Below, in pieces: positions 2,100-25,400 of a stretch of 31,496 nt of DNA (positions are counted from its first letter, which is position 1; every line of letters begins with the position of its first letter). The notes beneath the pieces are model-generated. The model was not told where the DNA came from and ran no database searches. It saw only the letters and a list, made by a program, of their open reading frames with translations. Where the stretch lies: IMG/VR virus record IMGVR_UViG_3300049893_000544, positions 1-31,496 of that record, one strand, 5' to 3'. The translations under genes and the position numbers were made by a program. The DNA comes from a virus.

Positions 2100-2998
2100 T
2101 GGCTAAGAAAAAAAACTATGAAATGCCAGTACGCTTACAGCATGAATTGGCGGAACAACCAACACAAGAAAGACTTTGCAGGGTCAAACATTCGGTGAAC
2201 CCCGGTGATTTAATCGGGGCTATGGGTGCTATAAAAAAGTATTATGATGTAACCAAAAGAAGGGTCATTGTGGCACAATCAGTTTCTTTTTTAGCGGCTT
2301 ATTATCAGGGTGCGACACACCCGACAACAAATGAAAAAGGAGAATTTGTCTGTTGTAATGATGATATGTGGGATATGTTGAAGCCGCTAATAGAAAGCCA
2401 ACATTATATACACTCGTTTGAAAAATATGCGGGGCAACCGATAGACCTTGACTTTGATGTTATTCGGGGTAAAACATTTGTAAACCTTCCAAACGGGGCT
2501 TTACCTTCTTGGTTGCCGCTTGCTTTTCCTGACCTTGCTTTTGATATGAGTAAGCCGTGGATTACTATTGAAGGTAAATGCCAGCCAAACATTAAAAAGC
2601 AAGTGCAAGGAAAAGTTATATTAAACTTTACAGAAAGGTATAGGAATAATTCTGCTGATTATTTTTACCTTAAAAATTATGCCCCTGATTTAATATTTGC
2701 CGGAAACGAAAGAGAACATTGGATGTTTTGCCAAAAGTGGCATTTAGATATACCGCACCTTAAAGTAAAAAACTTTTTGGAGTTGGCACACGCTATAAAA
2801 GAAGCAAGATTTTTGGTAGGTAACCAAAGTATGAATTGGAATTTAGCAAACGCTATGGGAACGCCAAGAATACTTGAAATATGTTCCTTTGCGCCTAATT
2901 GCCAAATTATGATAGGTGAAGATAATTACGGGTTTTATCATCAAGTGGGCAATGAGTACTATTTTAAAACTTTATATAATAAAACTGCCAATAAATAA
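2099..2998 (+). CDS. GT-B glycosyltransferase, GT9/heptosyltransferase-like (299 aa)
   Basis: Resembles the heptosyltransferase (GT9) family, which moves activated sugars in lipopolysaccharide-type pathways and has two Rossmann-like halves. Seen: an N-terminal VNPGDLIGAMGAIKKYYD (about 33-50), the position where GT9 proteins carry their GD...P.L..L segment; a domain junction followed by KVILNFTERYRNN, similar to the strand opening the donor-binding half; and FLVGNQSMNWNLANAMGTP at about 237-255, the family's hallmark 'FVGNDSG..HLAAALGTP' with Asn-Gln-Ser in place of Asn-Asp-Ser. Length is near the lower end for GT9. An AAAGGAG ribosome site lies eight bases before ATG 2099. It closes the sugar-transfer module, and the hairpin at 3000-3019 follows its stop. 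Substrate unknown; it may glycosylate a virion protein or host glycan. Confidence 0.68.
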   Translation: MAKKKNYEMPVRLQHELAEQPTQERLCRVKHSVNPGDLIGAMGAIKKYYDVTKRRVIVAQSVSFLAAYYQGATHPTTNEKGEFVCCNDDMWDMLKPLIESQHYIHSFEKYAGQPIDLDFDVIRGKTFVNLPNGALPSWLPLAFPDLAFDMSKPWITIEGKCQPNIKKQVQGKVILNFTERYRNNSADYFYLKNYAPDLIFAGNEREHWMFCQKWHLDIPHLKVKNFLELAHAIKEARFLVGNQSMNWNLANAMGTPRILEICSFAPNCQIMIGEDNYGFYHQVGNEYYFKTLYNKTANK

Positions 2999-2999
2999 A

Positions 3000-3019
3000 A
3001 AAGCCCCAAACGGGGCTTT
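3000..3019 (-). terminator. intrinsic terminator between convergent genes
   Basis: A perfect 8-bp stem, AAAGCCCC with GGGGCTTT, closes on the four-base loop AAAC. Read on the minus strand the hairpin is followed by six T residues, a good intrinsic terminator for the gene at 3045-3338. Read on the plus strand only three T residues follow, so it would be weaker for the GT9-like gene, whose stop lies just before it. Confidence 0.8.
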
Positions 3020-3044
3020 AGTTCATTGAAAACCTGTGTTAAGG

Positions 3045-3338
3045 TTAGCCTGCCAAAGTAGCCAAAGTAGCAACTGAACTATCAGTTACATACTTAGTGC
3101 CGTGAACATTCAGGCCAGTAGGGGGAAGTTCAATAACCGAATAAACATAAGAACCGCCAACTACTACACCGTTTGTAAGAGGGAAGAAACTTGTACCATC
3201 GGTAGGGAAACTAACGATAGTTGAAGTAGGCCAGTCTTTTACACGACTAAATGCGGCCTGACCGCTTGCATTTTGAAACGGGGGTTGTCCTTCGATTTCA
3301 CCATAAACACGGGTTGAAAAATGTGCTGCTGCTGCCAT
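3045..3338 (-). CDS. small Ala-rich protein, possible abundant virion component (97 aa)
   Basis: The only convincing minus-strand gene. It encodes 97 residues starting MAAAAHFSTRVYGEIEG, with many Ser/Thr/Val/Gly residues and beta-strand-like patterns (GGSYVYSVIEL, GTKYVTDSSVATLATLAG). I do not recognise the family. Support for a real gene: no plus-strand gene competes in 2999-3415, its stop is followed by a strong minus-strand terminator, and a TATATTTG element sits about 42 bases upstream on the same strand. Both Arg codons are CGT, as in most of the major capsid gene, while nearby genes mostly use AGA/AGG. That suggests high expression and, by inference, a decoration-type virion protein. 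It could instead be a regulator expressed separately from the main operon. Confidence 0.72.
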   Translation of the reverse strand: MAAAAHFSTRVYGEIEGQPPFQNASGQAAFSRVKDWPTSTIVSFPTDGTSFFPLTNGVVVGGSYVYSVIELPPTGLNVHGTKYVTDSSVATLATLAG

Positions 3339-3379
3339 TTTTTAAGTTTTAATAGGTATGGAAATAAGTCTGTCGGCAA

Positions 3380-3387
3380 CAAATATA
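3380..3387 (-). promoter_or_regulatory. Bacteroidota-type -7 element, minus strand
   Basis: The plus-strand bases CAAATATA read TATATTTG on the minus strand, an exact match to the Bacteroidota -7 consensus TAnnTTTG. It would start transcription about 35 bases before the ATG of the minus-strand gene at 3338. No TTTG was seen at the usual -33 distance, so this is a partial match. Confidence 0.45.
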
Positions 3388-3399
3388 ACAATTATTTTT

Positions 3400-3407
3400 T
3401 AACTTTG
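3400..3407 (+). promoter_or_regulatory. Bacteroidota-type -7 element, plus strand
   Basis: TAACTTTG matches TAnnTTTG and lies eight bases before ATG 3416, which would give a very short or almost leaderless transcript for the packaging and structural genes. No clear -33 TTTG is present. Such eight-base matches occur by chance in AT-rich DNA; the divergent placement with the minus-strand element is the main support. Confidence 0.35.
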
Positions 3408-3415
3408 AATATCTT

Positions 3416-4234
3416 ATGGCTAAACACTTTGTAGTAAACCCTTCAAAAGAAAATTTTGACAGGGCTGAACTTGTTAAATCGCAGCTTGACGAAAAGCTAA
3501 TCCACGCTACCGTTAAATCAGCAAGGGATAAAGCGAATGAGGCGGCATTGGCTAAGAAAGAAGCCCTTAAATATATTGAAGGTAGGGTTGTGGTAAAATT
3601 AGATATAGAGGCTAAAAATACACACAGGTTTGAAGATGGGACGGTAATAAGGCGGGAACGGAAGTACAACCAATTTAATATGCGGATAGCACAGCCAGTA
3701 AATGCTATCGTTATTTCAGCAGAATACATTCCATGTGGAACGCAAATACTTATTAATCATAACGCAATCCACGAAACAAATAAGATATTTGATTATCCTG
3801 AATTAACGGGGAAAGATGCGGAAAATGATATAAGATACTATTCGCTACCTGAAGAAGATTGTTATGCGTGGCTTGATATTGACGGAAGTTGGAAGCCGCT
3901 TAAAAACTTTGAGTTTAGCTTGCGGGTTTTTGAACCATATAAAGGAAGTCTTCTTGGTATAGAGCCAACGCTATACGTTGATACACTTTATGTTACAACT
4001 GGTAGTTTAAGGGGAAAAGTAGTTGGTACATTAAAGTTTTGCGATTACGAAATCGTGTTTCAGGGGTTAGGTGGTAAAGAGGAAAGAGTAATAAGATTCC
4101 GCCACTCCGAAGACGAAAGTTTTGAAAGGGAGGAAGTGGCTTTTGTAAATGATTTTCTTACAGAAAGAATGAGTAATGGTGAATTATTGGTAGGCTTTGA
4201 ACCGACTGACGCTAAAACGATTACAAATGACTGA
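3416..4234 (+). CDS. hypothetical protein upstream of terminase (272 aa)
   Basis: A soluble protein I do not recognise. Residues 10-60 are charged and helical (coiled-coil-like, rich in Lys/Glu/Ala). From about 60 onward the pattern becomes strand-rich, with GRVVVKLDIEAKN, FNMRIAQPVNAIVISAEYIPCG and GTLKFCDYEIVFQG, so a helical arm followed by a beta domain is likely. It is the first gene of the rightward packaging block, starting eight bases after a promoter-like element, and it overlaps the next gene by eight bases (4227-4234). The context points to a packaging or virion role, but no function can be assigned. Confidence 0.7.
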   Translation: MAKHFVVNPSKENFDRAELVKSQLDEKLIHATVKSARDKANEAALAKKEALKYIEGRVVVKLDIEAKNTHRFEDGTVIRRERKYNQFNMRIAQPVNAIVISAEYIPCGTQILINHNAIHETNKIFDYPELTGKDAENDIRYYSLPEEDCYAWLDIDGSWKPLKNFEFSLRVFEPYKGSLLGIEPTLYVDTLYVTTGSLRGKVVGTLKFCDYEIVFQGLGGKEERVIRFRHSEDESFEREEVAFVNDFLTERMSNGELLVGFEPTDAKTITND

Positions 4235-4550
4235 TGCCGACAAAATAAAGGAATTACAATCCGAACTTGCCCAATATAAATTAAACGGGGCAATAGGGTT
4301 GTATTACGAACTTAATAGGTTTGTAAACGATACAGTTTCAATACTGAGGGAAAAGGGGGTGAAAAGCCTTTTTGCCAAAGACGATGACGACCCCAAAAAA
4401 TTTGAACGCATGATGGCTCTCATAAAAAACGCAAAAGAACATATTGTTGATATGGAGGAAATTAAAGCCAAATTAGGACTTACGGGGGACGAAGAAAAAG
4501 ACAGAGTACGAAAACCGTTTATTGACCGCATAGCAGAAAAAAGAGATTAG
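4227..4550 (+). CDS. small helical protein before terminase, candidate TerS (107 aa)
   Basis: The ATG at 4227 is preferred over a TTG at 4197, because it gives the eight-base overlap ATGACTGA with the upstream gene and drops an unlikely ten-residue extension. The 107-residue product is charged and almost entirely helical, with a heptad-like N-terminus (MTDADKIKELQSELAQYK) and a basic C-terminus. Its stop overlaps the GTG start of the large terminase by one base (TAGTG). Small terminase subunits are often short helical proteins encoded directly before the large subunit, so this is a candidate TerS by size and position. No helix-turn-helix is obvious, and the assignment is inference. Confidence 0.65.
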   Translation: MTDADKIKELQSELAQYKLNGAIGLYYELNRFVNDTVSILREKGVKSLFAKDDDDPKKFERMMALIKNAKEHIVDMEEIKAKLGLTGDEEKDRVRKPFIDRIAEKRD

Positions 4551-6604
4551 TGGCAGAATACGAAGAAATATACCATACCCGAATAAAACTTCCTGAAAAA
4601 CCGCCTCACGAACAAATCCTTAATTGGGATAAGCCAAAAGATGAGCAAATGTGGATTAGGGAGGATTTGCCTTCTATTTTTGATAAAGTACAATACAATA
4701 AAAATGGCGACCTTATATTAACGGATGAACAAGAAGAATATGCCGCCAAAGAAGTAGAAAAGTGCAAAAACGGAATTTGGATTTGCATTAATGGAAAGGC
4801 AACTTACCTCCCTAAAAAATACTATTTCTATCTTCAATGGTGGGTTTTGGAAGATAGTAACCGCCCTGAATACCGTGATTGCGACAGGAGGTATTTTACA
4901 TTCCTTGAACATTGGGAAAACATACTTTGGTGCTTGGGTATTGTCAGGGGAAAGAAACGAAGGGAGGGAGCATCTTCGCAAGCAACATCAAACCTTGTAT
5001 ATGAGGCTATTTTCTTTAAGAACTCAAATTGTGGTTTAATTAGTAAAACAAGGGATGATAGCCGTGATACATTTACTGATATGGTGGCGTTTGGTTACAG
5101 GCATTTGCCGCCGTTTCTAAAACCAAAGCAGGTAAATAAAGAAGATAGTGTTACAGAAATGGTTTTCGCCCAAAAATCAATGAACATAAAAGACGGGATG
5201 ATTTCAGGGCAAAAAGAAGATGAAGGGCATAGGTCGAAAATTAACTATCGTGCGCCAGTACTGAACGCTTATGATAGGGGGCGTATGAGCAGGATTTTAG
5301 CCGATGAATTTGGTAAACTCCCGGTGGACGTTCCAGCTAACCAATTATTCGGAATCCTTGCTAAAACACTCGTAAAGGGTGTTAAGAGGGTAGGTTTTAT
5401 TGAAATGCCGTCAACCGTAAATAAACTTACAAAAGGCGGGCAGGGGTTTAAAATGATTTGGGAAAATGGCGACCTGAATAAGAAAACGCCAACTATAAAC
5501 AGGCTTATAAGATACTTTTGCCCTGCACATGATGGATACGAGGGTTTTATAGGTATGTACGGGGAAAGTGTTATCGGTGAGCCAACACACGAACAATACC
5601 AATACCTTGTAGAGAAGTGGGTTAAAAAAGACGATGAAGGTAATGTTATCAGCGAACTTTCAGAAGAAGATATAAAATTAGGGGCGAAGGCTTATATAGC
5701 CAAAAGGCGGGTTGGTATGGAAGGGGATGACCTTGAAGAAGAAATAAGGATGAACCCCGAAAATGAAGTTGAATTGTTTATGTCGGCAAACGCTGACTGT
5801 ATATTCAACGTAATGAACCTAAACAAGCAAATTGAATACTTGCGGGAAAACCCCGTAATAAAAAGAAAAATAGTATTTTATAGAGATATAGACCAACAAG
5901 TTAAGTGGCGGGATTTCAGGGATGGCGAAAGTGCTTTGCATTGGGAGTGGGTTGGAAGCCTTGACCGACCCAAAGATGCAATAATAAAAGACGGGTTTAA
6001 TATTCGTGCTGCCCGCCAAGATGTAGCTGTAATAGGCGTGGACGGTATCACAAACGAACAAGGGGGTAAGAGATACGGCTCAAAGGCTTCAGCATGGGTG
6101 TTTTCAAAATATGATTTGCGTGACCCCGAAAACACGGGATTATTTATAGGTCATTTATACGGGCGACCACGTGAAAAAAAAGACCTTTATGACCAAATAC
6201 TTTTTTGCTCTGAATATAATGGATTCCCTATTTATTGGGAGTTTGTAGCCGATGATTACGTTCCTTATTTTAGAGAAAGGGGGCGTATCGGGCTTTTGGC
6301 TAAATTTCCGTTAAATGCAATAGCACCTGAAAAAAGAAATAAACCATCCCTTGAAAGGCATTACGGGTTTCCCACAAGCGACTTTGCCATAACAAAAGGC
6401 AATGACGCAATGATAACATACGTTGAACACCACTACGAAAAAATTTACTGGTCAGAACTTTGCGAAGACTTGAAATTGTACGACCCGGCAAAACGTACCC
6501 CGTCTGACCGTTCTGTTAGTGCTATGATTGCTTTGGTTGGCGGTCTTGAACCCGTGAGGAAACCACTACCTAAGAAAGAACCGCTTATAACGGTTTATAA
6601 CTAA
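4550..6604 (+). CDS. terL: terminase large subunit (684 aa)
   Basis: The DNA-packaging motor: an N-terminal ATPase pumps DNA through the portal and a C-terminal RNase H-like nuclease cuts it. Start is GTG 4550, overlapping the preceding stop. An aromatic-rich leader region (YLPKKYYFYLQWW) precedes the ATPase. The P-loop region is GKKRREGASSQATS at about 133-146, a degenerate Walker A without a canonical GK[ST], seen in divergent phage terminases. Walker B is RILADEFGK at about 248-256. The nuclease half shows AVIGVDGI (Asp near 497), FVADDY (565-570) and PSDRSVSAMIAL (near 651-662), which fit the three metal-binding acidic sites. It is followed 61 bases later by the portal gene. Confidence is high from the combination of motifs and neighbours. 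Confidence 0.9.
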   Translation: MAEYEEIYHTRIKLPEKPPHEQILNWDKPKDEQMWIREDLPSIFDKVQYNKNGDLILTDEQEEYAAKEVEKCKNGIWICINGKATYLPKKYYFYLQWWVLEDSNRPEYRDCDRRYFTFLEHWENILWCLGIVRGKKRREGASSQATSNLVYEAIFFKNSNCGLISKTRDDSRDTFTDMVAFGYRHLPPFLKPKQVNKEDSVTEMVFAQKSMNIKDGMISGQKEDEGHRSKINYRAPVLNAYDRGRMSRILADEFGKLPVDVPANQLFGILAKTLVKGVKRVGFIEMPSTVNKLTKGGQGFKMIWENGDLNKKTPTINRLIRYFCPAHDGYEGFIGMYGESVIGEPTHEQYQYLVEKWVKKDDEGNVISELSEEDIKLGAKAYIAKRRVGMEGDDLEEEIRMNPENEVELFMSANADCIFNVMNLNKQIEYLRENPVIKRKIVFYRDIDQQVKWRDFRDGESALHWEWVGSLDRPKDAIIKDGFNIRAARQDVAVIGVDGITNEQGGKRYGSKASAWVFSKYDLRDPENTGLFIGHLYGRPREKKDLYDQILFCSEYNGFPIYWEFVADDYVPYFRERGRIGLLAKFPLNAIAPEKRNKPSLERHYGFPTSDFAITKGNDAMITYVEHHYEKIYWSELCEDLKLYDPAKRTPSDRSVSAMIALVGGLEPVRKPLPKKEPLITVYN

Positions 6605-6606
6605 AA

Positions 6607-6620
6607 AAACAAATTTGTTT
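6607..6620. promoter_or_regulatory. 14-bp perfect palindrome in the terL-portal gap
   Basis: AAACAAATTTGTTT is a perfect palindrome three bases after the terminase stop. It is followed by T-rich sequence and overlaps the TTTG that might serve as a -33 element. It could be a protein-binding operator or a weak terminator; it has no loop, so stable hairpin formation is unlikely. Confidence 0.35.
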
Positions 6621-6633
6621 CGTAATTTTTTCT

Positions 6634-6641
6634 TATTTTTG
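6634..6641 (+). promoter_or_regulatory. Bacteroidota-type -7 element before the portal gene
   Basis: TATTTTTG matches TAnnTTTG exactly and lies 24 bases before ATG 6666. A TTTG at 6614-6617 precedes it with a 16-base spacing, a little shorter than the 19-21 usually quoted. The 61-base gap here is long for this compact region, which supports a transcription start for the head genes. Confidence 0.45.
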
Positions 6642-6665
6642 TTGGCAGTATCCTATTAAAAACCA

Positions 6666-9134
6666 ATGTCTGATATATCCGCACAAAATTCAGGTGGAAT
6701 ACCGCAAGGTAGCGAAGCCATAAAAAAGTTTCAGCTAACGACTGATACCGAAAAAAAATCATCTAAAGAGTATGGATTAGCTATTGCCAAAGATATATGG
6801 TCAAAATCTAACACAGGCGTTGGCGGGTACTATTACAATCGGAACGCCCGCTTTTTCAAAAACAGAAATTACGCCAACGGTAGGATTGACATTCAGGCAA
6901 TGTTCAAGGATAGGTTTCAGTTTAATTCTAAAGAGAACTATATAAACCTTAATTGGAACGCCCTGCAAATAGTAAATAGGATTGTTTCAGGATTAGTTGG
7001 GCGGTGGATGTCAAGAAATGAAAAGATACAGGTTTCGGCTATTGACACATTATCTATTAAAGAAAAAGAAGAAGAATATAATAACATAGAATTTTTGCTC
7101 TACAATCGTGAAATGTTAGAGCAATTACAGGCGGAAAGCGGTGTACAGTTAATCCCGCAAGACCAATTTATCCCATCAGATAAAGAAGAACTTAATCTTT
7201 GGCAGCAGCAGTTTCAGAGGCTTCCAGAAGAAATTTTATATGAAATGGGGTGCAACGATGTATTGGCTTCTAATGGTTGGTTTGATGTGTTGAAAGAAAA
7301 AATGCTGCACGATGCTGCCGAAGTATTGTTTGTAGGCACTTATACCTGCATGGATGCCGACGGTGTGGTTAAAGTAAGATGGGTAAAGCCTGAAGACGCT
7401 ATTTATTCTTATTCAGAATATCCAGATTTTAGAGATACTACTTGGCGGGGCGAAGCACCTACTATTAAAATAAGTGAATTAAGAAAGAGATATGGGAAAG
7501 AATTTAATCCCGACAACCCGCTTGCGCTTACGGAAGAAGAACTTTGGAAAATTGCACAAACAGCTAAAGAGTTCCAATTTTCAACAAACCTTACTTGGAC
7601 TAATACTTGGTACAATGCCTTCCTTCGTCCCTATGATGAATGGAATGTTAGAAAACTATGTTTTGAGTTTAAATCACTGGACAGCGAACCTTATACTATT
7701 ACAAAAACAAAAGGTAGCGGCTCTACATACGTTGAAAAAGGCTATCCTAAAAAAACGGGGGAAAACAGGCAGGTTATTGAAGATAAAAGTTGGAACATAT
7801 ACGAAGGTGTTTATCTTCCTGACGTAGATAAGTTAGTTAAGTGGAATATTAAAAAGAATATGATTAGACCGCAAGACCCAAAAGAAATAGGTCAGGCGGA
7901 ATTTTCTTATTCGTTTGTTATGCCGCAAAATTATCTTATGCGGAATATGGCCGTTCCTGAAAAAATTGAAGCAGCAGTTGACGGAATGATTTTGGCTTTA
8001 TTGAAAATGCAGCAGGTTGTTTCACGAATGAGACCAACAGGGGCGGCTATTGACGAAAGTGCAATACAAAATATTGACTATGGATTAGGATATGCAGGTA
8101 ATAGCACAGTAAACTACAAAAGACTTTACGACCAAACGGGAGATATTTATTATAGAGGCGTTGATGCCGAAGGAAACCGCATACCAATACCAATTACAGA
8201 ATTAAAAAATAGTGGTTTTCTTGACCAAATGTCCGGCTTGATACAAAACTACCAATTTAACTATCAGATACTAAAAGATGAGTTGGGCGAAGACCCCAAC
8301 TTGATTTCGTCTGCATTACAACCTCGTGTTACAAGCGGTAACGTGGAAGCGAGCCAGTTAAACGCTGAATTTGCTACCGACTATATTTACCGTGCTTATG
8401 CAGAATGTATGAAGATTACAGCAAGAAAAGTATCTTGCTTATTAAAAGATTCTGTTAAATACGGGGCGGATGCTTATAGACGCATTGTAAAATCTGAAGA
8501 TATTGGCGACAGACAGTTTACTACTGATATTAAATTAATGTCCACTATACAAGAGATAGCTAAATTTGAGATAATGATGAACGAAGCAATGAGAAGCACA
8601 CCTTCTCTTGTTCTTTATCTTGACCCGTTCCAATTAATGCGGATTGCAAAAGAAGATATTAAGTTAGCCGAAATGATGTTCAGGCAGGCCACAAAGAAAA
8701 TGCTGATTAATGAAGAAAGGAAAGCAATGCAAAATCAGCAGCAGACAATAGAAGGACAAATTGCATCAGCACAGGCCGCCGAAGAAGAAAAGAGAAAAAC
8801 GCAGGAGCAAGCTGGGCTTATTGAAATTGAAAAAACAAAAATGTCGGGCGATGCTCAAAATAAAAATACGGTTCTTAGTATGATTGCTACATTGTTAAAA
8901 CCATCAACTGATGGCGTGGCATCATCTATACCCGCTACATTGCAGCCGCTTGTTAATGCCGTAATAGATAATGTAATGGTAAGTACGGTGGCTTCAACGG
9001 AAGAACAAAAGCAAAAAATATTAGCCGAAATGCAGGCGGCAAGAGAGGCAGAAATGCAGCAACAACAGCAGCAACAACCCATGCAGCCTCCAATGGACGA
9101 ACAAATAAATCAACAACCTCCAGCGATGGAATAA
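6666..9134 (+). CDS. portal protein (822 aa)
   Basis: Probably the portal: a dodecameric ring at one capsid vertex through which the terminase moves DNA. Length and position directly after terL fit the large portals of podoviruses and crAss-like phages. Residues about 60-120 contain a DIQAMFKDRF...NWNALQIVNRIVSGLVGRW segment typical of the N-terminal wing. The central part is rich in Trp/Tyr and charged residues. A long helical segment about 490-700 (EIAKFEIMMNEAMRST, LAEMMFRQATKKM) fits the stem and crown. The last about 100 residues are coiled-coil-like, then low-complexity Gln/Pro (CAG/CAA runs near 9055-9090), probably a disordered tail. No signal peptide. The call comes from gene order and overall pattern rather than one diagnostic motif. 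Confidence 0.82.
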   Translation: MSDISAQNSGGIPQGSEAIKKFQLTTDTEKKSSKEYGLAIAKDIWSKSNTGVGGYYYNRNARFFKNRNYANGRIDIQAMFKDRFQFNSKENYINLNWNALQIVNRIVSGLVGRWMSRNEKIQVSAIDTLSIKEKEEEYNNIEFLLYNREMLEQLQAESGVQLIPQDQFIPSDKEELNLWQQQFQRLPEEILYEMGCNDVLASNGWFDVLKEKMLHDAAEVLFVGTYTCMDADGVVKVRWVKPEDAIYSYSEYPDFRDTTWRGEAPTIKISELRKRYGKEFNPDNPLALTEEELWKIAQTAKEFQFSTNLTWTNTWYNAFLRPYDEWNVRKLCFEFKSLDSEPYTITKTKGSGSTYVEKGYPKKTGENRQVIEDKSWNIYEGVYLPDVDKLVKWNIKKNMIRPQDPKEIGQAEFSYSFVMPQNYLMRNMAVPEKIEAAVDGMILALLKMQQVVSRMRPTGAAIDESAIQNIDYGLGYAGNSTVNYKRLYDQTGDIYYRGVDAEGNRIPIPITELKNSGFLDQMSGLIQNYQFNYQILKDELGEDPNLISSALQPRVTSGNVEASQLNAEFATDYIYRAYAECMKITARKVSCLLKDSVKYGADAYRRIVKSEDIGDRQFTTDIKLMSTIQEIAKFEIMMNEAMRSTPSLVLYLDPFQLMRIAKEDIKLAEMMFRQATKKMLINEERKAMQNQQQTIEGQIASAQAAEEEKRKTQEQAGLIEIEKTKMSGDAQNKNTVLSMIATLLKPSTDGVASSIPATLQPLVNAVIDNVMVSTVASTEEQKQKILAEMQAAREAEMQQQQQQQPMQPPMDEQINQQPPAME

Positions 9135-9146
9135 AAATTTAATGCG

Positions 9147-9512
9147 ATGGCACTAAGTTATCAAACAGATTTAACAAAAGACTACAAGCAAAACATATAC
9201 AGCATTACTCTTGATATGAGTGGTTGGACTAAAACTACTATTCAGGTGGAAGCACCCGTAGCAGCACCGTTGTTTGTTTATGGCAGCAACGATTCTAACC
9301 CTATTCAGGGAGTAAGAGATGGCGATGCTTCAACAGCAAGAAACTTTGTCCAGTTGGCTACGTTAAACGTTTCAAGCACAACGCCTGCCACATTGGTTAA
9401 TTCTATAAGTGCTGCCGGAAGTTTTGAAGTTGATATAAACAACAGGTTTTTAAGAGTGCAGGGTGGCGGTGCTGATGTGTATAAGATTACGTTTAATCAT
9501 TACAAGCAATAA
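9147..9512 (+). CDS. small beta-rich virion protein, candidate (121 aa)
   Basis: A 121-residue protein with regular short strands (NIYSITLDMSGW, TTIQVEAPVAAPLFVYG, FLRVQGGGADVYKITFNHY), which suggests a single beta-sandwich. It has no Cys and no signal or membrane segment. It lies 12 bases after the portal and 26 before the scaffold, a position where phages often encode head-decoration or accessory capsid proteins. The SGW..TTIQVEAP opening followed by strand repeats is compatible with a small head protein, but I do not recognise the family. Start ATG 9147 is chosen over the out-of-frame ATG at 9142. Confidence 0.68.
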   Translation: MALSYQTDLTKDYKQNIYSITLDMSGWTKTTIQVEAPVAAPLFVYGSNDSNPIQGVRDGDASTARNFVQLATLNVSSTTPATLVNSISAAGSFEVDINNRFLRVQGGGADVYKITFNHYKQ

Positions 9513-9538
9513 TATTTTTTAATTTAAACTAAACCCGT

Positions 9539-10267
9539 ATGTCAGAAACGACACAGGAAACTGCAACAACATCATCAAACGATAGTTTGATTGCAGCAGC
9601 TTGGGGCGATACACCGCCCGCTACCGCTACGGTAGAAACAACCCAAGAGGTTGAGGAAACGGTTACAACTACAACCGTTGAGAAAGAATCAGAAGAAGTA
9701 GTTAATGCAGACGATTATCTTAAACAAAACTTGGGGTATTCAAATTGGGATGAAGCAAAGAAAGAAATAGAAGAATTAAGAAAGTTAAAAGAATCCCAAT
9801 CCGCCAATGAAAATAAGTTTGCAAATCAGGAAAGTGAAAGGCTATATAAAGCCATTTTGGAAGGTAAAGAAGATGAAGTTTATGAAGTTCTTAGCAAGAA
9901 AAAAGAATTTGAAAGAGTAGAAAAACTTGACGTTACCAATCCAAAAGATGCTACTGAATTAATAAGGTTAAACCTTAAAATGAAACACCCGCAATTAGAT
10001 ACTTCTGAAATAGAAGATATGATTGCAGACGCATATTTACGTTATCCAAAACCGACAAAAGATTTTGGTATAGATGAAGAAGAATATGAAGAAAAGCTAA
10101 AGGCTTGGCAAATTCGAGAAGATGCAATAGACCGCAAGGTTGTGCGTGATGCGAAAATAGTTAAGCCAGAAGTTTTATCTTTGCAAAGTAAAATAGTTAT
10201 TCCAGATATAACCACAGGCGGTTCAAAAGCAACGGAGGTAAGCCAAATCAGCAGAATCAGTTCTTAA
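9539..10267 (+). CDS. scaffold protein, N-terminal part (frame ends early)
   Basis: Likely the internal scaffold that guides coat assembly. The first 60 residues are low-complexity Thr/Glu/Val (TATVETTQEVEETVTTTTVE), followed by an acidic, helical coiled-coil region (about 60-220) rich in Glu and Lys with almost no aromatic residues. Such composition directly before the coat gene is typical of scaffolds. The frame stops at 10265-10267 after an unstructured-looking EVSQISRISS, while the +1 frame is open from 10242 and continues with convincing helical protein to 10661. The gene therefore appears interrupted by a +1 (or -2) frame change between 10242 and 10267. A protease role was considered, but no catalytic motif is present. 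Confidence 0.75.
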   Translation: MSETTQETATTSSNDSLIAAAWGDTPPATATVETTQEVEETVTTTTVEKESEEVVNADDYLKQNLGYSNWDEAKKEIEELRKLKESQSANENKFANQESERLYKAILEGKEDEVYEVLSKKKEFERVEKLDVTNPKDATELIRLNLKMKHPQLDTSEIEDMIADAYLRYPKPTKDFGIDEEEYEEKLKAWQIREDAIDRKVVRDAKIVKPEVLSLQSKIVIPDITTGGSKATEVSQISRISS

Positions 10268-10661
10268 AAATTTCAATGGATTTTCGGCAGCGGTAAAAGA
10301 CAAGGATGTTGAGATACCCGTAACCTACGATTTATCCAAAGATGAAAAGGCAACATTGAGTAACTATGTGAAAAATTTTGCCGAAGGACTTGATGCTAAT
10401 GTGTTATTCGCAGACAGGTGGCTTGACAAAGATGGAAGTATTAAGACGGAACAAGTGATAAAGGATTTATCCAAAATTCTGTTTGAAGAAAGCAAGACAC
10501 AGAAGTTTGTAAATGATGCCGCCGCAAAGCGTTTAGAACTTTACCTAAAAGGTAAGAAAAACGTAGATGTTGGCGGTAGCAATACAACAAAAACTTCTTT
10601 TGAACTATCAGGAGAAGATGCAAGACTTGAAAAGTTGAGGGAAAGTGTTTGGAATAGCTAA
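10242..10661 (+). CDS. scaffold protein, C-terminal part in the +1 frame
   Basis: This frame is open from 10242 (stop TAA at 10239-10241) to TAA 10661. Its first codons (NFNGFSAAVKDKDVEIPV, then TYDLSKDEKATL) read as real protein, yet contain no ATG or GTG. The first possible start is TTG 10356, which would discard clearly protein-like sequence. It therefore looks like the C-terminal half of the scaffold, which in known scaffolds binds the coat protein. The remainder is helical and charged (FAEGLDANVLFADRWLDKDG, KRLELYLKGKK) and ends 38 bases before the capsid gene. It may be made by programmed frameshifting, be separately initiated at TTG, or reflect an indel in the phage or the assembly. 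Confidence 0.68.
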   Translation, partial: AKSAESVLKNFNGFSAAVKDKDVEIPVTYDLSKDEKATLSNYVKNFAEGLDANVLFADRWLDKDGSIKTEQVIKDLSKILFEESKTQKFVNDAAAKRLELYLKGKKNVDVGGSNTTKTSFELSGEDARLEKLRESVWNS

Positions 10662-10699
10662 GATTTCACAAGTTTTTAAAATCTAAAACCCTTTGAAAA

Positions 10700-12127
10700 A
10701 TGGCAGGAATACCTACCTCGAATATCCTCCAACCCGGCGTAATTTCAGCTCCGGTTGGCGTGGATAGGGCGTTAATATCTAATTTACAGTTATTGACTCC
10801 CCAATACTACAATAAATATGTAGAAAAATACGGCTCTGAAGCATACGATTACTTTTTCCAGTGGCTTGCCACTTTTGGCGGCATGGAAACAGTTAAAAAC
10901 CGTAACTACTTTTGGTTTGAAAGCCGTGGTAAAAACCAAATTGCAGTTTCAAACCTTGCACAAGTAACAAATCCGGCAGCAGGGGCAACCGTTACTGTTA
11001 ATATCCCAGCAAGCGACCTGTACGATTCAGGTACAGACAGCCCGCTTCGTGTTGGTGAAACAGTTTTCGTGGCTTCTTCAAACATTGAAGGTGAAATCCT
11101 TACTGTTCCAGCAGTTGACCAATGTACAATCCGTCCTAAAAAATCAGACCAAGCGTTTGTATCAGCAGGCTCTACACACCTTTTAGCTGGTGAGGTTTTG
11201 ATTTTTGGCGGTTTAACTGACGTTGGTGAGGCTTCAGGAGAAAGAGTACCGCAAGTTCATCTTGACGTTAAGTATGACAACAACATTACCGAAATCCGTG
11301 AATCATTTGCTGCTACTGACCTTGCAGGAATGACTGATATTTTCTATGACAATGGCGTATCAGGAAGCGAAATCGGTGGTGTGGGTCAGGCAGGCCGCAG
11401 CTACTTTACCTACAAATCACTTGTTAAATCCGAAAGACGTTTCTTAAACTCTATCGAAAACAAGTTGATGCGTGGTGATGAAGTTACCAATACAGGTATG
11501 CTTACTTCTACATCAGAAGGTTCTTTGGGCTTTATCCCTAAGATTACAGCCGATGGAGAAACCGTAAACTATACACCCGGTACTTTGGATATTGCAAAAC
11601 TGCATGAAATTACCCGTGTAATGGATGTTAATGGTTGTGCCAAGCAGAATGTTTGGTTACAAGACATCTTCCAGCGTCAGGATTTCAGCGATGGTATCTT
11701 TAAGGAATACCCCGCAGGTGCTTTTGTTTATGGTACAGGTGAAAAATCCAAAGAGGCTTCAGTAGCTTACGGCTTCCAAGAAATCCTGATTGACGGTTAT
11801 CTGTTGCAGGTTAAGAAGTACAGCCCGTGGAATACCGAAGTACAAACAGGTAAAACACCTACTACTGACTATTTCCGTAACTATGGCGTTATCTCTCCTA
11901 TGGGTGGCGTTCCAGATGCTAAAACAGCAAATGTTATGAAAAACATTACTGTTATGGTTCAAGAGCCGCCTAAAGGTGGTACAGTAGGTAACGGTATCAG
12001 ATTGTGGCAGTGGGGTGGTGGTTCAATGAACCCAACTGACGGTACAATGCGTGACCATGTTGAAATGATAACTTACAGAGGCACAAGGGTTTGTGCGCCA
12101 AATCAGTTCGTTATAGTATCAGCATAA
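10700..12127 (+). CDS. major capsid protein (475 aa)
   Basis: Almost certainly the coat protein, expected to have the HK97 fold. Its length, its position after portal and scaffold, and its composition (Gly/Thr/Val-rich, evenly charged) fit the coat of podovirus-type and crAss-like phages. Visible regions: an N-terminal arm; an E-loop-like stretch after about residue 60 (YFWFESRGKNQIAVSNLAQV); a strand-rich insertion around 95-175 (TVTVNIPASDLYDSG, GETVFVASSNIEGEI); a helical spine segment near 240-265 (SLVKSERRFLNSIENKLM); and an Arg/Gly/Trp-rich C-terminus. Most of its Arg codons are CGT/CGC, whereas neighbouring genes favour AGA/AGG, as expected for the most abundant product. A strong terminator-like hairpin follows at 12146-12181. 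Confidence 0.88.
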   Translation: MAGIPTSNILQPGVISAPVGVDRALISNLQLLTPQYYNKYVEKYGSEAYDYFFQWLATFGGMETVKNRNYFWFESRGKNQIAVSNLAQVTNPAAGATVTVNIPASDLYDSGTDSPLRVGETVFVASSNIEGEILTVPAVDQCTIRPKKSDQAFVSAGSTHLLAGEVLIFGGLTDVGEASGERVPQVHLDVKYDNNITEIRESFAATDLAGMTDIFYDNGVSGSEIGGVGQAGRSYFTYKSLVKSERRFLNSIENKLMRGDEVTNTGMLTSTSEGSLGFIPKITADGETVNYTPGTLDIAKLHEITRVMDVNGCAKQNVWLQDIFQRQDFSDGIFKEYPAGAFVYGTGEKSKEASVAYGFQEILIDGYLLQVKKYSPWNTEVQTGKTPTTDYFRNYGVISPMGGVPDAKTANVMKNITVMVQEPPKGGTVGNGIRLWQWGGGSMNPTDGTMRDHVEMITYRGTRVCAPNQFVIVSA

Positions 12128-12145
12128 TCCGTATCCTAAAAACCC

Positions 12146-12181
12146 AAAAGTGGCTTCCGTGAAATACCGGAAGCTGCTTTT
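12146..12181 (+). terminator. intrinsic terminator after the capsid gene
   Basis: The arms starting AAAAGTGGCTTCCG (12146) and CGGAAGCTGCTTTT (12168) pair over 14 positions with two G-T wobbles, around an eight-base loop TGAAATAC. The right arm ends in TTTT. This is a good intrinsic terminator, only 18 bases after the capsid stop. Partial termination here would keep capsid mRNA more abundant than downstream tail-gene mRNA. Confidence 0.72.
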
Positions 12182-12189
12182 AAAAAACA

Positions 12190-12220
12190 CCCGCCAAGAT
12201 TGCGGGGGCTATATAAAGCC
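12190..12220 (+). other. two further small hairpins in the capsid 3' region
   Basis: Directly after the terminator-like stem come CCCGC/GCGGG (12190-12194 with 12202-12206, seven-base loop) and GGCT/AGCC (12107-12110 in offset terms, that is 12207-12210 with 12217-12220, six-base loop). With the preceding stem they form three consecutive hairpins in 75 bases. They could protect the capsid mRNA end or stage transcription into the next genes. No T-run follows, so they are not classical terminators. Confidence 0.4.
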
Positions 12221-12258
12221 TTAAACAGTATTAATAATAAAATAAAAAAGCTATAAAA

Positions 12259-13140
12259 ATGTCAACTTTAAAACAAGTAGAATCAGCCATGCGGGGCGAC
12301 AAAGGAAATCCGCAAACAGAACAGTTCTTTAACAACACATCAAGTATTGATGTTTCGCCTCAAACCGAAGTAAAGTATCATGTTTTCAGATTGGTTAAAA
12401 AGAAGAAAGGAAGGATTTATATTGATAGTATAGGTGAAGGAGTAAACCCTAATACAAAAAGAAGGGAAAGAATTTGGTTGATTAACGGGGCTGACACAAT
12501 ATGGCAAAGTGAACTGCTTAAGATTTATAACGAAAAAGATTTAAGGCAGAACAGGCAGCTAAGTCCGACATTTGAAAACGGCATATTAAGAGTACCATCT
12601 TGGGACACACTAAGAGTGGAATTTTTAAGGAATAATATTAAAAATGTCGGTTCTTTAAGAAGCGGTAACGGTAAGTTTGATTATTACGAGTATGACGCTG
12701 CCGCGGAACAGGCAATGAGGCATAAAAAGCAGTTGCTTAAAATTGATATGGTAATTAAAGCCAAAGAAATGCCTGTTGAGAAAATGAAGAAATTGGCAAG
12801 TTTCTTAGGTATATCATTTGTAGATGAATTGGGTATGCCAAAAGGAGATGACGGGGTTAGAACGGAATTAATGATGAAGGCCGACAGCTTCCCCGAACAA
12901 TTTGAAAAGTATATTGATAGTGATGAAGTAGATGTTCAGTATATGGTTAAAAAAGCTATTATAGAAGCGAAAATTGATTTAACGGGGCAGAACGGTAATG
13001 CTTTGTGGGCTGGCGGGAAAGGATTTATTTGTAAAATTCCGGTTGGCAGAAAACCATACGAATATCTTACAGAACTTGCAATGACTAATTCAGATGAAGG
13101 AAAAAAATTCAAAGAAGAATTACAAACATTCGCTAAATAA
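12259..13140 (+). CDS. hypothetical structural-module protein (293 aa)
   Basis: I do not recognise this 293-residue protein. The N-terminus (first about 35) is polar and probably flexible. Residues about 38-110 form a strand/basic region (KYHVFRLVKKKKGRIYIDSI, then KRRERIWLINGADTIW). Residues about 150-200 are helical, and the C-terminus again mixes strands with Gly/Asn loops (GNALWAGGKGFICKIPVG). It lacks membrane segments. It is the first gene after the capsid hairpins and overlaps the next gene by one base (TAATG at 13138-13142). Position between coat and connector-like genes suggests a head-completion or internal head role; this is inference. Confidence 0.7.
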   Translation: MSTLKQVESAMRGDKGNPQTEQFFNNTSSIDVSPQTEVKYHVFRLVKKKKGRIYIDSIGEGVNPNTKRRERIWLINGADTIWQSELLKIYNEKDLRQNRQLSPTFENGILRVPSWDTLRVEFLRNNIKNVGSLRSGNGKFDYYEYDAAAEQAMRHKKQLLKIDMVIKAKEMPVEKMKKLASFLGISFVDELGMPKGDDGVRTELMMKADSFPEQFEKYIDSDEVDVQYMVKKAIIEAKIDLTGQNGNALWAGGKGFICKIPVGRKPYEYLTELAMTNSDEGKKFKEELQTFAK

Positions 13141-13817
13141 TGGACGTAAATCAAGCGTATAAAATAACGCAGTACATTGTAGGGAAAAACATCCAAAACG
13201 GTTATTTATCGCCTGATGATTTTTACTATTCTATAAATCAGGCACAAAACGAATACCTTGATTATCTATTAGGTGAGTATCAGCAGTATCAGGCGGGGCG
13301 ACCTATTGCAGTTGTCGAAATAGGACAAAAAGAAAAAGTACGCAATAGTATCGCCCCGCTTATTTATAATATTACCCTAACGCCTAATACGGCAACAGGG
13401 GTATCTTCATACCCTTCAGATTATCAGGCGGTGGATTCTATGTGGACTGTTTATGGCGGATTATACAATATAAGGTTCGTAAATCAACCAAGATTAGTTA
13501 GCTTCCATAATTCAAGCATTGACCTTGTAAATGACAATCCAATATATTTATTAAAACACGAAGGATTTCAATTTTATCCTACTAATATCGGATTGGCAAA
13601 AATGAGTTATGTTAGAAACCCGCCAAGCATTGTATGGGGGTATGTGTTGGATTCAAACGGAAACCCCGTTTACAATCCAGCTACAAGCCAACAACCAGTA
13701 TGGGGTGCGATAGATATGATGAATATTATTGCAAGGGCTTTAAGAATAATAGGTGTAAATCTTAATGCGGGAGAAGTAGCACAGTACGCAAGTCAAGTAC
13801 AATTTAACGGGCAATAA
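13140..13817 (+). CDS. head-tail connector / ring-like structural protein (225 aa)
   Basis: Likely a connector or ring protein attached below the portal. The N-terminal helical region contains YLSPDDFYYSINQAQNEYLD (about 23-42), a pattern with 'F...N.AQ..Y..YL' common in this position in crAss-like and similar podovirus genomes. A strand-rich middle (PLIYNITLTPNTATG, GLYNIRFVNQP) is followed by MSYVRNPPSIVWGY near 160-173. The C-terminal helix (MMNIIARALRIIGVNL) ends in a Gln-rich tail. Its start overlaps the preceding stop and the next gene follows two bases after its stop, so the set is probably co-translated. Family-level call by gene order and pattern. Confidence 0.6.
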   Translation: MDVNQAYKITQYIVGKNIQNGYLSPDDFYYSINQAQNEYLDYLLGEYQQYQAGRPIAVVEIGQKEKVRNSIAPLIYNITLTPNTATGVSSYPSDYQAVDSMWTVYGGLYNIRFVNQPRLVSFHNSSIDLVNDNPIYLLKHEGFQFYPTNIGLAKMSYVRNPPSIVWGYVLDSNGNPVYNPATSQQPVWGAIDMMNIIARALRIIGVNLNAGEVAQYASQVQFNGQ

Positions 13818-13819
13818 AA

Positions 13820-14461
13820 ATGGCATTGACAAGACAACAATATATAGAGCAAATCCGCCGTATGATATACGGTGGTTTCCCTTCTGATGATGCTGAAATA
13901 ACCATAGGACTTGTCAACCAGTGGCTTGACCAAGCGATAGCCTTTGCCGCCCAAAAATGTTATCAGGATAACTTAAAGATTGAAGGGATAGCATTTGTAA
14001 ACAATGGTTTTTATTCTACTTTCAAAGGCATTGAAGTAACAAAGGATGAAAATTTTTTGTGGAAGATTGTACTTCCGCAAGTTCCGCCGGGGATAGGACA
14101 AAGCGAAGGCATCAGCACGATAGAATTTAAAAGCGACACCAATCAAATATCTTATCCTGTTGTATTAATGAGTATGAATCAGCGTTCTTATAACAAGGGG
14201 ATGCGACCAATACCAAATAAATTAATAGGCTATCAGGAAGGCTGCAATGTGTTTGTATTAAGCACCATTCAGCTTTCTCAATATACAGCAACAGTTACAA
14301 TGATTAGTGGCGGAGTAAGCAGCGATTTGGACAGCGTATTGAATGTCTCGTCTGATTATCTGCCATTTGTAACAGATTATTTAAAACAACAATTTGCGTT
14401 TTCAAGGAATATGCCCGTTGACTTAAATAGCGATGGGCAGGATTTTGTAAAAGCAGTATAA
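13820..14461 (+). CDS. ring/adaptor-like structural protein (213 aa)
   Basis: Probably another connector ring or tail-adaptor subunit. Residues 1-45 are helical with an Arg/Gln-rich opening (MALTRQQYIEQIRRMIYGG) and DDAEITIGLVNQWLDQAIAF, resembling small adaptor proteins that dock on the portal. The remainder is strand-rich (FYSTFKGIEV, FLWKIVLPQVPPGIG, ATVTMISGG), and the end is a short helix (FVTDYLKQQFAF). There is no membrane segment. It begins two bases after the preceding connector-like gene and ends three bases before a GroES-like gene. The overall plan, N-terminal helices then beta domain, is shared with the gene at 14739-15494, so the two may be paralogous ring components; identity between them is not obvious by eye. 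Confidence 0.58.
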   Translation: MALTRQQYIEQIRRMIYGGFPSDDAEITIGLVNQWLDQAIAFAAQKCYQDNLKIEGIAFVNNGFYSTFKGIEVTKDENFLWKIVLPQVPPGIGQSEGISTIEFKSDTNQISYPVVLMSMNQRSYNKGMRPIPNKLIGYQEGCNVFVLSTIQLSQYTATVTMISGGVSSDLDSVLNVSSDYLPFVTDYLKQQFAFSRNMPVDLNSDGQDFVKAV

Positions 14462-14464
14462 TAT

Positions 14465-14734
14465 ATGATACAACCAATAAGAAACAACGTAGTGGTTAAA
14501 TGTTTTGATTGTAGCGAATATTCCGAAGGCGGAATATTTGTACCGGAAAGCGTAAGGCAGCCGTCAAATAAGGTAAAAGTTATGGCGGTTGGCAACGGCA
14601 CAGCAAAAAAGAAAATGAAACTAAAGGCAGGAGATATAGGTTACAGGGTTAAGGGATGGGGAGAGCCTTTTGAGTTAGATGGGGAAACTTATTATATTAT
14701 TGACGCAAGTGCCGTTATAGCACTAACTGATTAA
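14465..14734 (+). CDS. GroES-like co-chaperonin (89 aa)
   Basis: Resembles the chaperonin-10 (GroES) family, whose seven-subunit caps bind GroEL and enclose folding substrates; phage versions such as T4 gp31 help fold the coat protein. Seen in order: MIQPIRNNVVVKCF, matching the family's 'I.PL.DRVvVk' opening; SEGGIFVPES at 20-29, the mobile-loop region with its hydrophobic contact residues; KVKVMAVGNGT at 36-46, the conserved 'G.VvAVG.G' strand; LKAGDIGYRVKGWGEPFELD, matching 'vk.GD.Vlf..y.G.e...dg'; and YYIIDASAVIAL at the end. Length 89 is close to the usual 95-97. It sits inside the connector/tail genes, so it is likely made late to fold a virion protein by host GroEL; that client is inferred. 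Confidence 0.8.
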   Translation: MIQPIRNNVVVKCFDCSEYSEGGIFVPESVRQPSNKVKVMAVGNGTAKKKMKLKAGDIGYRVKGWGEPFELDGETYYIIDASAVIALTD

Positions 14735-21136: not shown

Positions 21137-22489
21137 ATGGCAATAAACCCACTCCCGCAAGGGTTACATAATCAATATACAGAGGTACTTGATTCCTCCC
21201 CATTTTTAAGAAGAAATCTTGAAAATGAAGCTAAGAGGGAGGCTAAAGAAGAAGCCTTAAATCAGTATTTTAATGACCAAATAAAAACATTAAATCCTGC
21301 TGGTTTGAGGGATGTTCACCAAGCGGGAATATTAAAAGAGATAGCCGATATACAAAGTTTTTGGAATCAGAATAGCAGGGAAATAAAACAAGGCGGTGAA
21401 AAAAGGATGCAACTTGATAGAATGTTTAGAGATGCCGCCTATAATATTAATAATGCAAAACAAAGAGATAAGTTTTTTTTAGATTTAGCACAACAAAGAG
21501 CAGAAGGTAAAATTGAATTAGATGAAGAAGATATAAAGAAAGTATTGCCAAATCTTGAAAAATCAATATACGACAAATCGTCCTTAAAGCAGGATGGTAC
21601 TGATTATACTTGGGCGGATTTGTCAGCAATGGTAAAAGATTTGGATATAGAAACAGAGGGGAAGGCGTTAGATGCTATAACTAAAAATCTTACTCCTGTT
21701 GAAACCAAAGATTTATCAAGAAGGGTTGTTGATAAACAAAGTGGCGAAACAATTACTCCGATAATTAAAGCGTACACGCCAGAACAATTATTAGCTGCGG
21801 CTGAAACAGCAAAAGATTTACCTTTAGGAAATAGTGAATTAGCGAGAAAAGCGAGAAAATCTTATAATAGGTTACTAAAAGATGATGCCGCCATAACAGA
21901 ACTTGAAAAGTATTATAAGAAGGTTTATGGGCAAGATAAAGAAATAACAACCACCGAACAGGTGGCACAGGCAAAAGTGATAAAAAGAATGGTGGATGCT
22001 ACATCGGAAAAACTAAAAGAGGATAAAGATGTATTGCAGGCACAGATAAAAATAAATGTTGGTGGTGGTAGTAATACACCTAAAAATGCTGGTGCTAATT
22101 GGGTTACAAGAGCTATGTCAGCAATGAAAAGTGGTAATAGCCAAACAGCAACCGATGTTTTTTCAGAATTATTGGCAGGTGATATTACAAAATTTGATGG
22201 TGTTGAGGATTTGGGCGGTGGTAAATTTAAGGTTAAGATTTTGCCAAAGCAAAAGTATGACGTATTTGGGCAGGCAATACAAGGTTCGACAAACCCGGTA
22301 GAGAGAACTTTTGATGTAAACAGCAGAACGCTTCCTTATGAATTGCAGAATTTATATCAAAGTGTAATGGGCGGCGATGTTAAACTTGAAAAAACGTATT
22401 TCCCGCCAAATAAACCGACAGGAGAGAAACCAAAAGACGAAAAGCCATCAGGCGGTTCTTGGAAAGACAGGGCTAAAAAAGTACAATAA
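21137..22489 (+). CDS. internal virion / ejection protein, medium (450 aa)
   Basis: Probably a second cargo protein. The first about 120 residues are helical and strongly charged (NLENEAKREAKEEALNQYF), with further helical blocks to about 300. From about 305 a Gly/Asn linker (VGGGSNTPKNAG) leads to a small C-terminal region with strands (GGGKFKVKILPKQKYDVFG) and a Pro/Lys-rich tail (PTGEKPKDEKPSGG). There is no membrane segment and no recognisable enzyme motif. Its stop overlaps the giant gene's ATG (TAATG at 22487-22491). A three-gene cargo series of small, medium and very large proteins recalls T7 gp14-gp15-gp16, although no homology to those is claimed. Confidence 0.65.
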   Translation: MAINPLPQGLHNQYTEVLDSSPFLRRNLENEAKREAKEEALNQYFNDQIKTLNPAGLRDVHQAGILKEIADIQSFWNQNSREIKQGGEKRMQLDRMFRDAAYNINNAKQRDKFFLDLAQQRAEGKIELDEEDIKKVLPNLEKSIYDKSSLKQDGTDYTWADLSAMVKDLDIETEGKALDAITKNLTPVETKDLSRRVVDKQSGETITPIIKAYTPEQLLAAAETAKDLPLGNSELARKARKSYNRLLKDDAAITELEKYYKKVYGQDKEITTTEQVAQAKVIKRMVDATSEKLKEDKDVLQAQIKINVGGGSNTPKNAGANWVTRAMSAMKSGNSQTATDVFSELLAGDITKFDGVEDLGGGKFKVKILPKQKYDVFGQAIQGSTNPVERTFDVNSRTLPYELQNLYQSVMGGDVKLEKTYFPPNKPTGEKPKDEKPSGGSWKDRAKKVQ

Positions 22490-25400
22490 TGAGTAAATCG
22501 TTAAGAGTAAAAAAGGGAAACGAAGTATTAGAAATACAAGATACAGACCTTCAGGCGGCTGTTAATGATGGGTATTTGCCAACAGATACGGTTATAGTTG
22601 CAAATAGTAAAACTAAGGAAGTTTATGAGATAGCCCCGCAAGATTTACCGTCAGCATTTAAAGACGGGTTTTCATTTCAAGATGTAAAAAAAAAAGAACT
22701 TGGCGGTGGTTCACTTGGCTCAAAAGTTGGCGGCTTAGAACCCCAATCTACCGTATCAAATAACTTACAGAAAATAGGTAGCGGTGTAATGGGTAAGTTT
22801 GCTGATGTTATTATAAATCCGACAACTGGGAAATATCCAAAAGCAAACATAAATTTTGATATTGAATCTGTTTCGCAAAGAAGCAAAACACCAGATGCAG
22901 ATGTTAGGCTGTATAATAAGAAATTTGAAGAAGCGACAGGTGTTTTAGATTTAGGGGCATCTCCAAAAGGAATACTTGGTGGTGAAAAGAAAGATGATAA
23001 AATTTTAAGTAGAGAATCCTTATCAGATGCCGCCAAGTATCAAAAATATAGAAAGGTAGAAGAATATGTAATAAATCCCGTCCTTAATAATATTTATTCT
23101 GGTAGGGTAGAACCAGAAGAATTAAAATCTTTATACAACAATCAGTATGGTAAAAAAATCCTGTTAAATGTTTTAAATCAAGAATTACCAGAAATAAGTA
23201 AGATTGGGCTGGATGAAGATGTTTTTGGTAACGAAAAAAAGTGGGATAAGGTTGCCCAAAAATTGCAATACAGGAATAGGGCTAAGGGGATTGAATTACA
23301 AGAGCAACAAGAAGAACAAATCGCATCTGAACTTTCGGATGTATTTTCAAATTATAAATACGGTAAAGAGGATTATATTTCTGAAAGAAGAGGCCAAGCC
23401 CCACAATTAAAATCAACAAAAATCCCTTTCAGGGTTGATAATATTAACGATGTATCACAGCTTCAGGACGCATTAAATAGCGTAGAAAGGATGCCTTTTA
23501 TTTGGGATAAAGACGGTCACAAGGTTGATAAAACCCCAATAAAAGAAAAATTACAAAGAAGGATATTCCAATTACAAGCAGGGAAGGAAATTGACAAAGA
23601 GATATTAGGTCTTAAAGATATTATACTAAATGCCGTTGATAAAGTACCCCTTGATTGGAAAAGTCAGGGCAATGACCCAAATTTAGTTCAAAGAGATGCT
23701 GAATATGTAATGGCTGCTTTAAATTATTTGAAAGACACAAAAATCGGTGAATATGGCATGATAGTAGCCTCTATGGTTACTAATGGTAAAATTTCTGAAA
23801 CTCAATTTACCGAACTTGCTAACTTAGGAATTGAGTTAAAAAAATATAAAGATTTTAAAGGTGGTGCGTATGTATCAGGGGAAAAGAGAAGTATGCTTAC
23901 GCCACAATATAAAAAGGCAATATTAAGTGGATGGTTGTCTGAAAAACTTGAACAAGAGGGATATAGAAACAGGTCTGCTTATTCTGCAAAAGAAATTATA
24001 TCAGCTTATCAAAGCGCACCAGAAGATATAAAAGACGATGAAGTTTTAAGTGAAATAATAAAGGCGGAACGTGCGCCTTCGTTTGGGTTTTTGCCAATAC
24101 CGCAAGGGGAAGGGCTTGTTAAAAAGGGGGCTTTAAATTCTATTTTTGAAGGGTTCGCTAACCCCGTAAAAAGTATATTTAATACAGTAAGTACCGTAGT
24201 TGATTCTCCATTTGACACTTATTTAAAATCAAAAGAACTTGATAGGGGCGGACAAACAATATTAAATAAAAAAGGTGAATTTACAACTACATTAGAAAAT
24301 AATTTTTGGAATAAAGCGTTAGAGGGGGCTGCTGGATTATTCATGCAGGTTGGGCTTGCAAGGGGGTTGGGTTTACTTGCTAAAACCCCAATCAATGCAG
24401 CAATAGGAAGGGTAAACCCAATGGCGGCTATGACCACAAATCAAGCTGCCTTAAACATAGGTACTCCGCTATCAACATTAGCGCAAACATACGGATATGA
24501 GTATGTTGATTTTTTGGAGAAAACGGGAAGCCCCACAAAAGCTGCGTTAGGGGCTTTTGTTAGCGGTAGCGTTCAGGGATGGATTGAAAAGAATGTAATG
24601 CCAGACGTAAAAATTGCAGAAAACATAAACCTTATTACTGCAAAAAGAAATTTTGCAAAAGAAATAATTAATGTAATTGATAGTGGTGGTGGGCAGGCTA
24701 AATTAGGTGATATTGCAAAAAAGTTTTTAGATAATACAGCTAAAACATTAGGTAAGGAGGCTTGGGGCGAAGAAGTATTACAAAACTTTACTAATTATAT
24801 CACAGAATTAGTTATATCGCCTAAAACGGGTATAGATAGGAATATCTTAAAAGAAAGTTTAGATACGGGATTGCAAGCTACTAATGCAATGATATTACCT
24901 TCTTTATTAGGTGCTGCCGGACAAACAAAGATAAATAGACAACTATCAAAAGCAGGGATTAATATGATAGCGGCTTATCCAAAAGAATATTTAGATGCAA
25001 TGGATAGTCAGTTAGCAAGGGGTGAAATATCAAAGCAAGACTATGATTTAGCTACTAATATTATAAACCTGCACAGGGAAAATAATATCAATGCCCCAAA
25101 ATATGATGTTGAAGGTAACCCAATATCAGCAGATGGGCAATTAGAATACGCCTACCAATCAACAGTAGAGGCCATTAATAAAGAAAAGTTAAATCAGATA
25201 AAAGACCAAATACAAAAAGAACCGATTGAAAAAAAGATAAAAGAAGCTAATAATATAAAAAGAAAAATATTTAATGGGAAAGAGGCTGAAATAATAACCG
25301 ATATAAATGAATTAAAAATAGACCAAGATAGGGATTTGATGGATGAACCGGAATTAACAGAAGAACAGAAGGTAATACAAAGGGCTATTGATAGCGGGGA

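Follow-up and report, generated by a model that had tools for sequence, protein, structure and literature searches.

Does the gene between the portal and major capsid genes of this phage yield two scaffold products by programmed +1 frameshifting, or has it been broken? The window (the whole stretch of DNA analysed, 31,496 nucleotides) corresponds to a complete virus record, and the features that bear on the question are collected in Table 1. Our analysis indicates that the scaffold-type gene has very probably been interrupted by a single small deletion in this contig, and that programmed frameshifting is not the cause.

Table 1. Features at and around the interrupted gene, by position in the window
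Feature	Position	Strand	Basis or remark
Portal protein gene	6666..9134	+	phrog_6547, E 1.2e-42
Scaffold-type gene, 5' piece	9539..10267	+	242 codons; open frame, 188-bit profile match, BLAST to 13 relatives
PDI-to-GF stretch with the joint	10211..10280	+	70 nt, versus 99-126 nt (33-42 codons) in relatives
GGAGGT	10234..10239	+	chance occurrence
Scaffold-type gene, 3' piece, +1 frame	10242..10661	+	139 codons; open frame, 126-bit profile match (positions 255-391)
TCT TAA A	10262..10268	+	out-of-frame stop after the joint; +1 coding score and homology already from 10242-10245
Major capsid (virion structural) protein gene	10700..12127	+	phrog_13704 virion structural protein, E 1.5e-6; relatives 55-81% identical

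The upstream frame runs from an ATG at 9539 to a TAA at 10265-10267, with TCT (10262-10264) in front of the stop and an A (10268) behind it. The +1 frame opens at 10242, since the codon at 10239-10241 is TAA, and its earliest ATG, GTG or TTG is a TTG at 10356. These coordinates, like that of the GGAGGT motif, agree with those of the preliminary description. The two pieces are consecutive parts of one protein family, as judged by a profile built from the relatives, with homology in the 5' piece extending until about 10230 (profile positions 2-235). Full-length homology of the gene is thus distributed over two frames, with 19 profile positions absent at the joint. The profile scores show the sequence to be protein-like in both frames, and it had been correctly recognised that a single scaffold-type gene, directly upstream of the capsid gene, is spread over them.

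We assign the gene to the portal-scaffold-capsid module of Bacteroidota podovirus-like phages, with a putative scaffold role. It lies between the portal and major capsid genes, in an order identical to that of isolated phages, and this place suggests the function, as do a model that is largely helical and an N-terminus modelled with low confidence and probably disordered. A Pfam search with the gene gave no match, and a PDB fold comparison with the model of a relative's protein gave no significant one. Given the mean pLDDT of 70 and the pTM of 0.37 of that model, only its local helix assignment was used here.

Several other genes of the window deserve mention. A GroES-like co-chaperonin (PF00166, 50.7 bits) is encoded at 14465-14734 amid the virion genes; in isolated relatives a GroES gene stands directly before the terminase. 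The muzzle protein of crAss-like phages has a C-terminal domain (PF25729) that the frame at 17322-20429 matches weakly, just below the cut-off (E 1.6e-5, 25.6 bits), a similarity that suggests a tail design in common. Near the left contig end, upstream of the packaging genes, a methyltransferase-like gene (PF13578, 1111-1758) adjoins a gene of glycosyltransferase-like appearance (320-1105) for which Pfam gave no match. At the other end, one frame, over 3000 codons long (22489-31494), runs past the end of the contig and perhaps encodes a giant structural or injected protein.

Relatives of the locus were collected with the capsid protein as query, which returned 80 viral loci (55-81% identity), and with an alignment of the upstream genes of these capsid-anchored loci as query, which returned 80 further loci partly overlapping the first set. 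Three loci were taken from Bacteroidota MAG contigs. The relatives are labelled L002-L088 and L093-L175, L001 being a copy of the window. Searches of viral contigs with each of the short pieces had recovered no relatives, because the family is too variable, and it was the route through the capsid gene that succeeded. In each of the 80 capsid-anchored loci, one frame encodes the gene directly upstream of the capsid gene. A profile search of all stop-to-stop frames of every locus identified 85 distinct full-length homologues, every one a single uninterrupted frame, and intact genes have a length of about 355-405 codons; only in the window and its copy was the family split between frames. The preliminary description had held that one uninterrupted gene in relatives would count against its reading, and this is the situation in the entire set. 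One uninterrupted gene is also found at the equivalent place in Cellulophaga phage phi38:1, Flavobacterium phage elemo, Maribacter phage Panino and the Manatee Spring genome, the last three giving no match to the family profile. Two of the loci, L043 and L044, are on one contig (IMGVR_UViG_3300032323_002596, 59,908 bases), at 2421-13821 reversed and 46088-57488, with oppositely oriented capsid genes and identical gene coordinates; this contig may be an inverted-duplication assembly artefact.

The spacing of conserved anchors on either side of the joint reveals that a segment is missing from the window. Between PDI and GF, the window has 23 residues and one base, and the 85 homologues have 33-42 residues (37 in 56 of them; mean 37.6, sd 1.4 in a set of 45 sequences). 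The three closest relatives, L002, L003 and L004, have 42, 40 and 41 residues, respectively. The loss at the joint is estimated at about 35-56 nt, or some 12-19 codons, and at 50-56 nt by these three relatives. It comprises most of a helix predicted at residues 250-272 of the L002 protein (AlphaFold2; local pLDDT 78-86), together with the preceding linker. A net loss of 3n+2 bases accounts for both the frame change and the absent residues. The event we propose is one deletion, of net 3n+2 bases within about 35-56 nt and most likely 50-56, which would have taken out most of one helix and placed the remainder of the gene in the +1 frame, in one step instead of two. The sequence as written would give a truncated protein of 242 residues, with a C-terminal part that would never be initiated. 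At the joint we saw no tandem repeats and no clear direct repeat favouring deletion, the only repeat being one of 10 nt (90%, 77 nt apart). The indel that the preliminary description offered as an alternative is therefore retained, but not as the single-base event that it envisaged, since 12-19 codons or so are missing.

Neither piece shows decay. With a profile that excluded the five intact relatives used for comparison, the 5' piece scores 176 bits (165-217 for the corresponding part of those relatives) and the 3' piece 102 bits (82-130). No further broken gene was seen in the frame tiling of the window. It follows that the break is recent or was produced by amplification or assembly; in other words, it would be either a join made in one of these steps or a lesion truly present in the sampled genome. 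We lean slightly towards the artefact, because a phage that forms the majority in the sample and lacks an intact scaffold gene would not be expected to propagate, and a decaying prophage or a strain variant is a possible source. A near-identical contig was not found, and a search for the exact pattern of the joint, allowing variable spacing, returned no second copy.

Where the frame changes can be located from two kinds of evidence. Codon usage points to frame 0 until about 10223 and to the +1 frame from 10241 onwards, the coding signal switching at about 10235-10242. In addition, the peptide KSAESVL, read in the +1 frame from 10245 and thus before the stop, scores +5.0 bits at its place in the profile, a value that random 7-mers attain in 0.3% of cases and 7-mers of the window in 0.4%. 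The frame-0 tail VSQISRISS, set where it would belong if the slip took place at the stop, has a score of -5.1 bits. By themselves these two scores are modest evidence for a frame change before the stop, but they agree with the anchor spacing. TCT TAA is the first out-of-frame stop past the joint and not the site of the frame change.

Among the alternatives to a single deletion, the best placed, although improbable, is a one-base sequencing indel or skip in a gene with a naturally shorter linker. It has the appeal of a simple, single event, and the frames joined at about 10241 do read naturally. However, the resulting linker of 23 residues falls outside the range of all 85 relatives and most of the predicted helix would still be absent. 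This reading would need a further in-frame deletion, independent of the first event, at this very place.

Programmed +1 frameshifting at TCT TAA A, giving a short and a long form of the scaffold, is less probable still. The frames do overlap (10242-10267), the stop does come after TCT and both pieces are conserved; yet the frame change is found in none of the 85 distinct homologues, the +1 homology begins at 10245, ahead of the stop, and codon usage gives the +1 frame a score of +5.9 but the frame-0 tail one of -3.3. Moreover, a slip of the ribosome would leave the absent 12-19 codons unaccounted for. Neither programmed frameshifting at this stop nor the two scaffold forms that were thought to result from it are supported by these data.

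The GGAGGT motif does not rescue the frameshift. In prfB, the Shine-Dalgarno (SD)-like element lies only a few bases ahead of the stop; here 25 nt separate the end of the motif from the stop, which is not the close spacing of the prfB type. The window contains 8 copies of GGAGGT against an expectation of 7.8, and an SD-like motif precedes only 1 of 17 window genes, most having A-rich leaders. This rarity is consistent with reports that Bacteroidetes mRNAs lack SD sequences (PMC6847099) and that the anti-SD is sequestered in Bacteroidia ribosomes, which do not recognise SD sequences (PMC9976891). A relevance of the motif, as hinted at in the preliminary description, is not supported.

A genuine split of the gene, in which two polypeptides, the second internally started, would jointly do the work of the scaffold, is as doubtful as the programmed shift. 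Both parts are conserved and undecayed, as such a split would have it, but with no start before the TTG at 10356 the conserved part would lose its first 38 residues, and none of the relatives has a split gene. The least credible reading of all is that the phage lineage lost the helix part and that recoding at the overlap (10242-10267) restores a full-length scaffold beside the short form.

The probable deletion removes one candidate for recoding in a capsid-assembly gene, which matters little by itself. Of wider use is that, across relatives, the spacing of anchors tells deletion and programmed slippage apart, even where neither frame looks damaged. We advise against citing the contig as an example of frameshifting or as carrying two scaffold genes.

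Compared with known systems, the window resembles the +1 frameshift of prfB (release factor 2) in having an in-frame stop past which the +1 frame is open. It differs in that the arrangement is not conserved in relatives, the SD-like motif is too distant, codons are missing and the switch precedes the stop, zero-frame coding not extending up to the shift codon as in the prfB type. With +1 frameshifts of the antizyme type (TCC TGA class) it shares a serine codon before the stop, but the shift lies away from the stop and conservation is again lacking. Cellulophaga phage phi38:1 (Pervagoviridae) likewise has a gene before its capsid gene, gp092 ('structural protein'), a distant match (whole-sequence E 4e-8) which, unlike the split gene of the window, is one uninterrupted gene of 400 codons. 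The closest comparison is with the IMG/VR and MAG relatives, in which family, position and length class are those of the window; the frame is unbroken there, whereas here it carries a deletion and a frame break.
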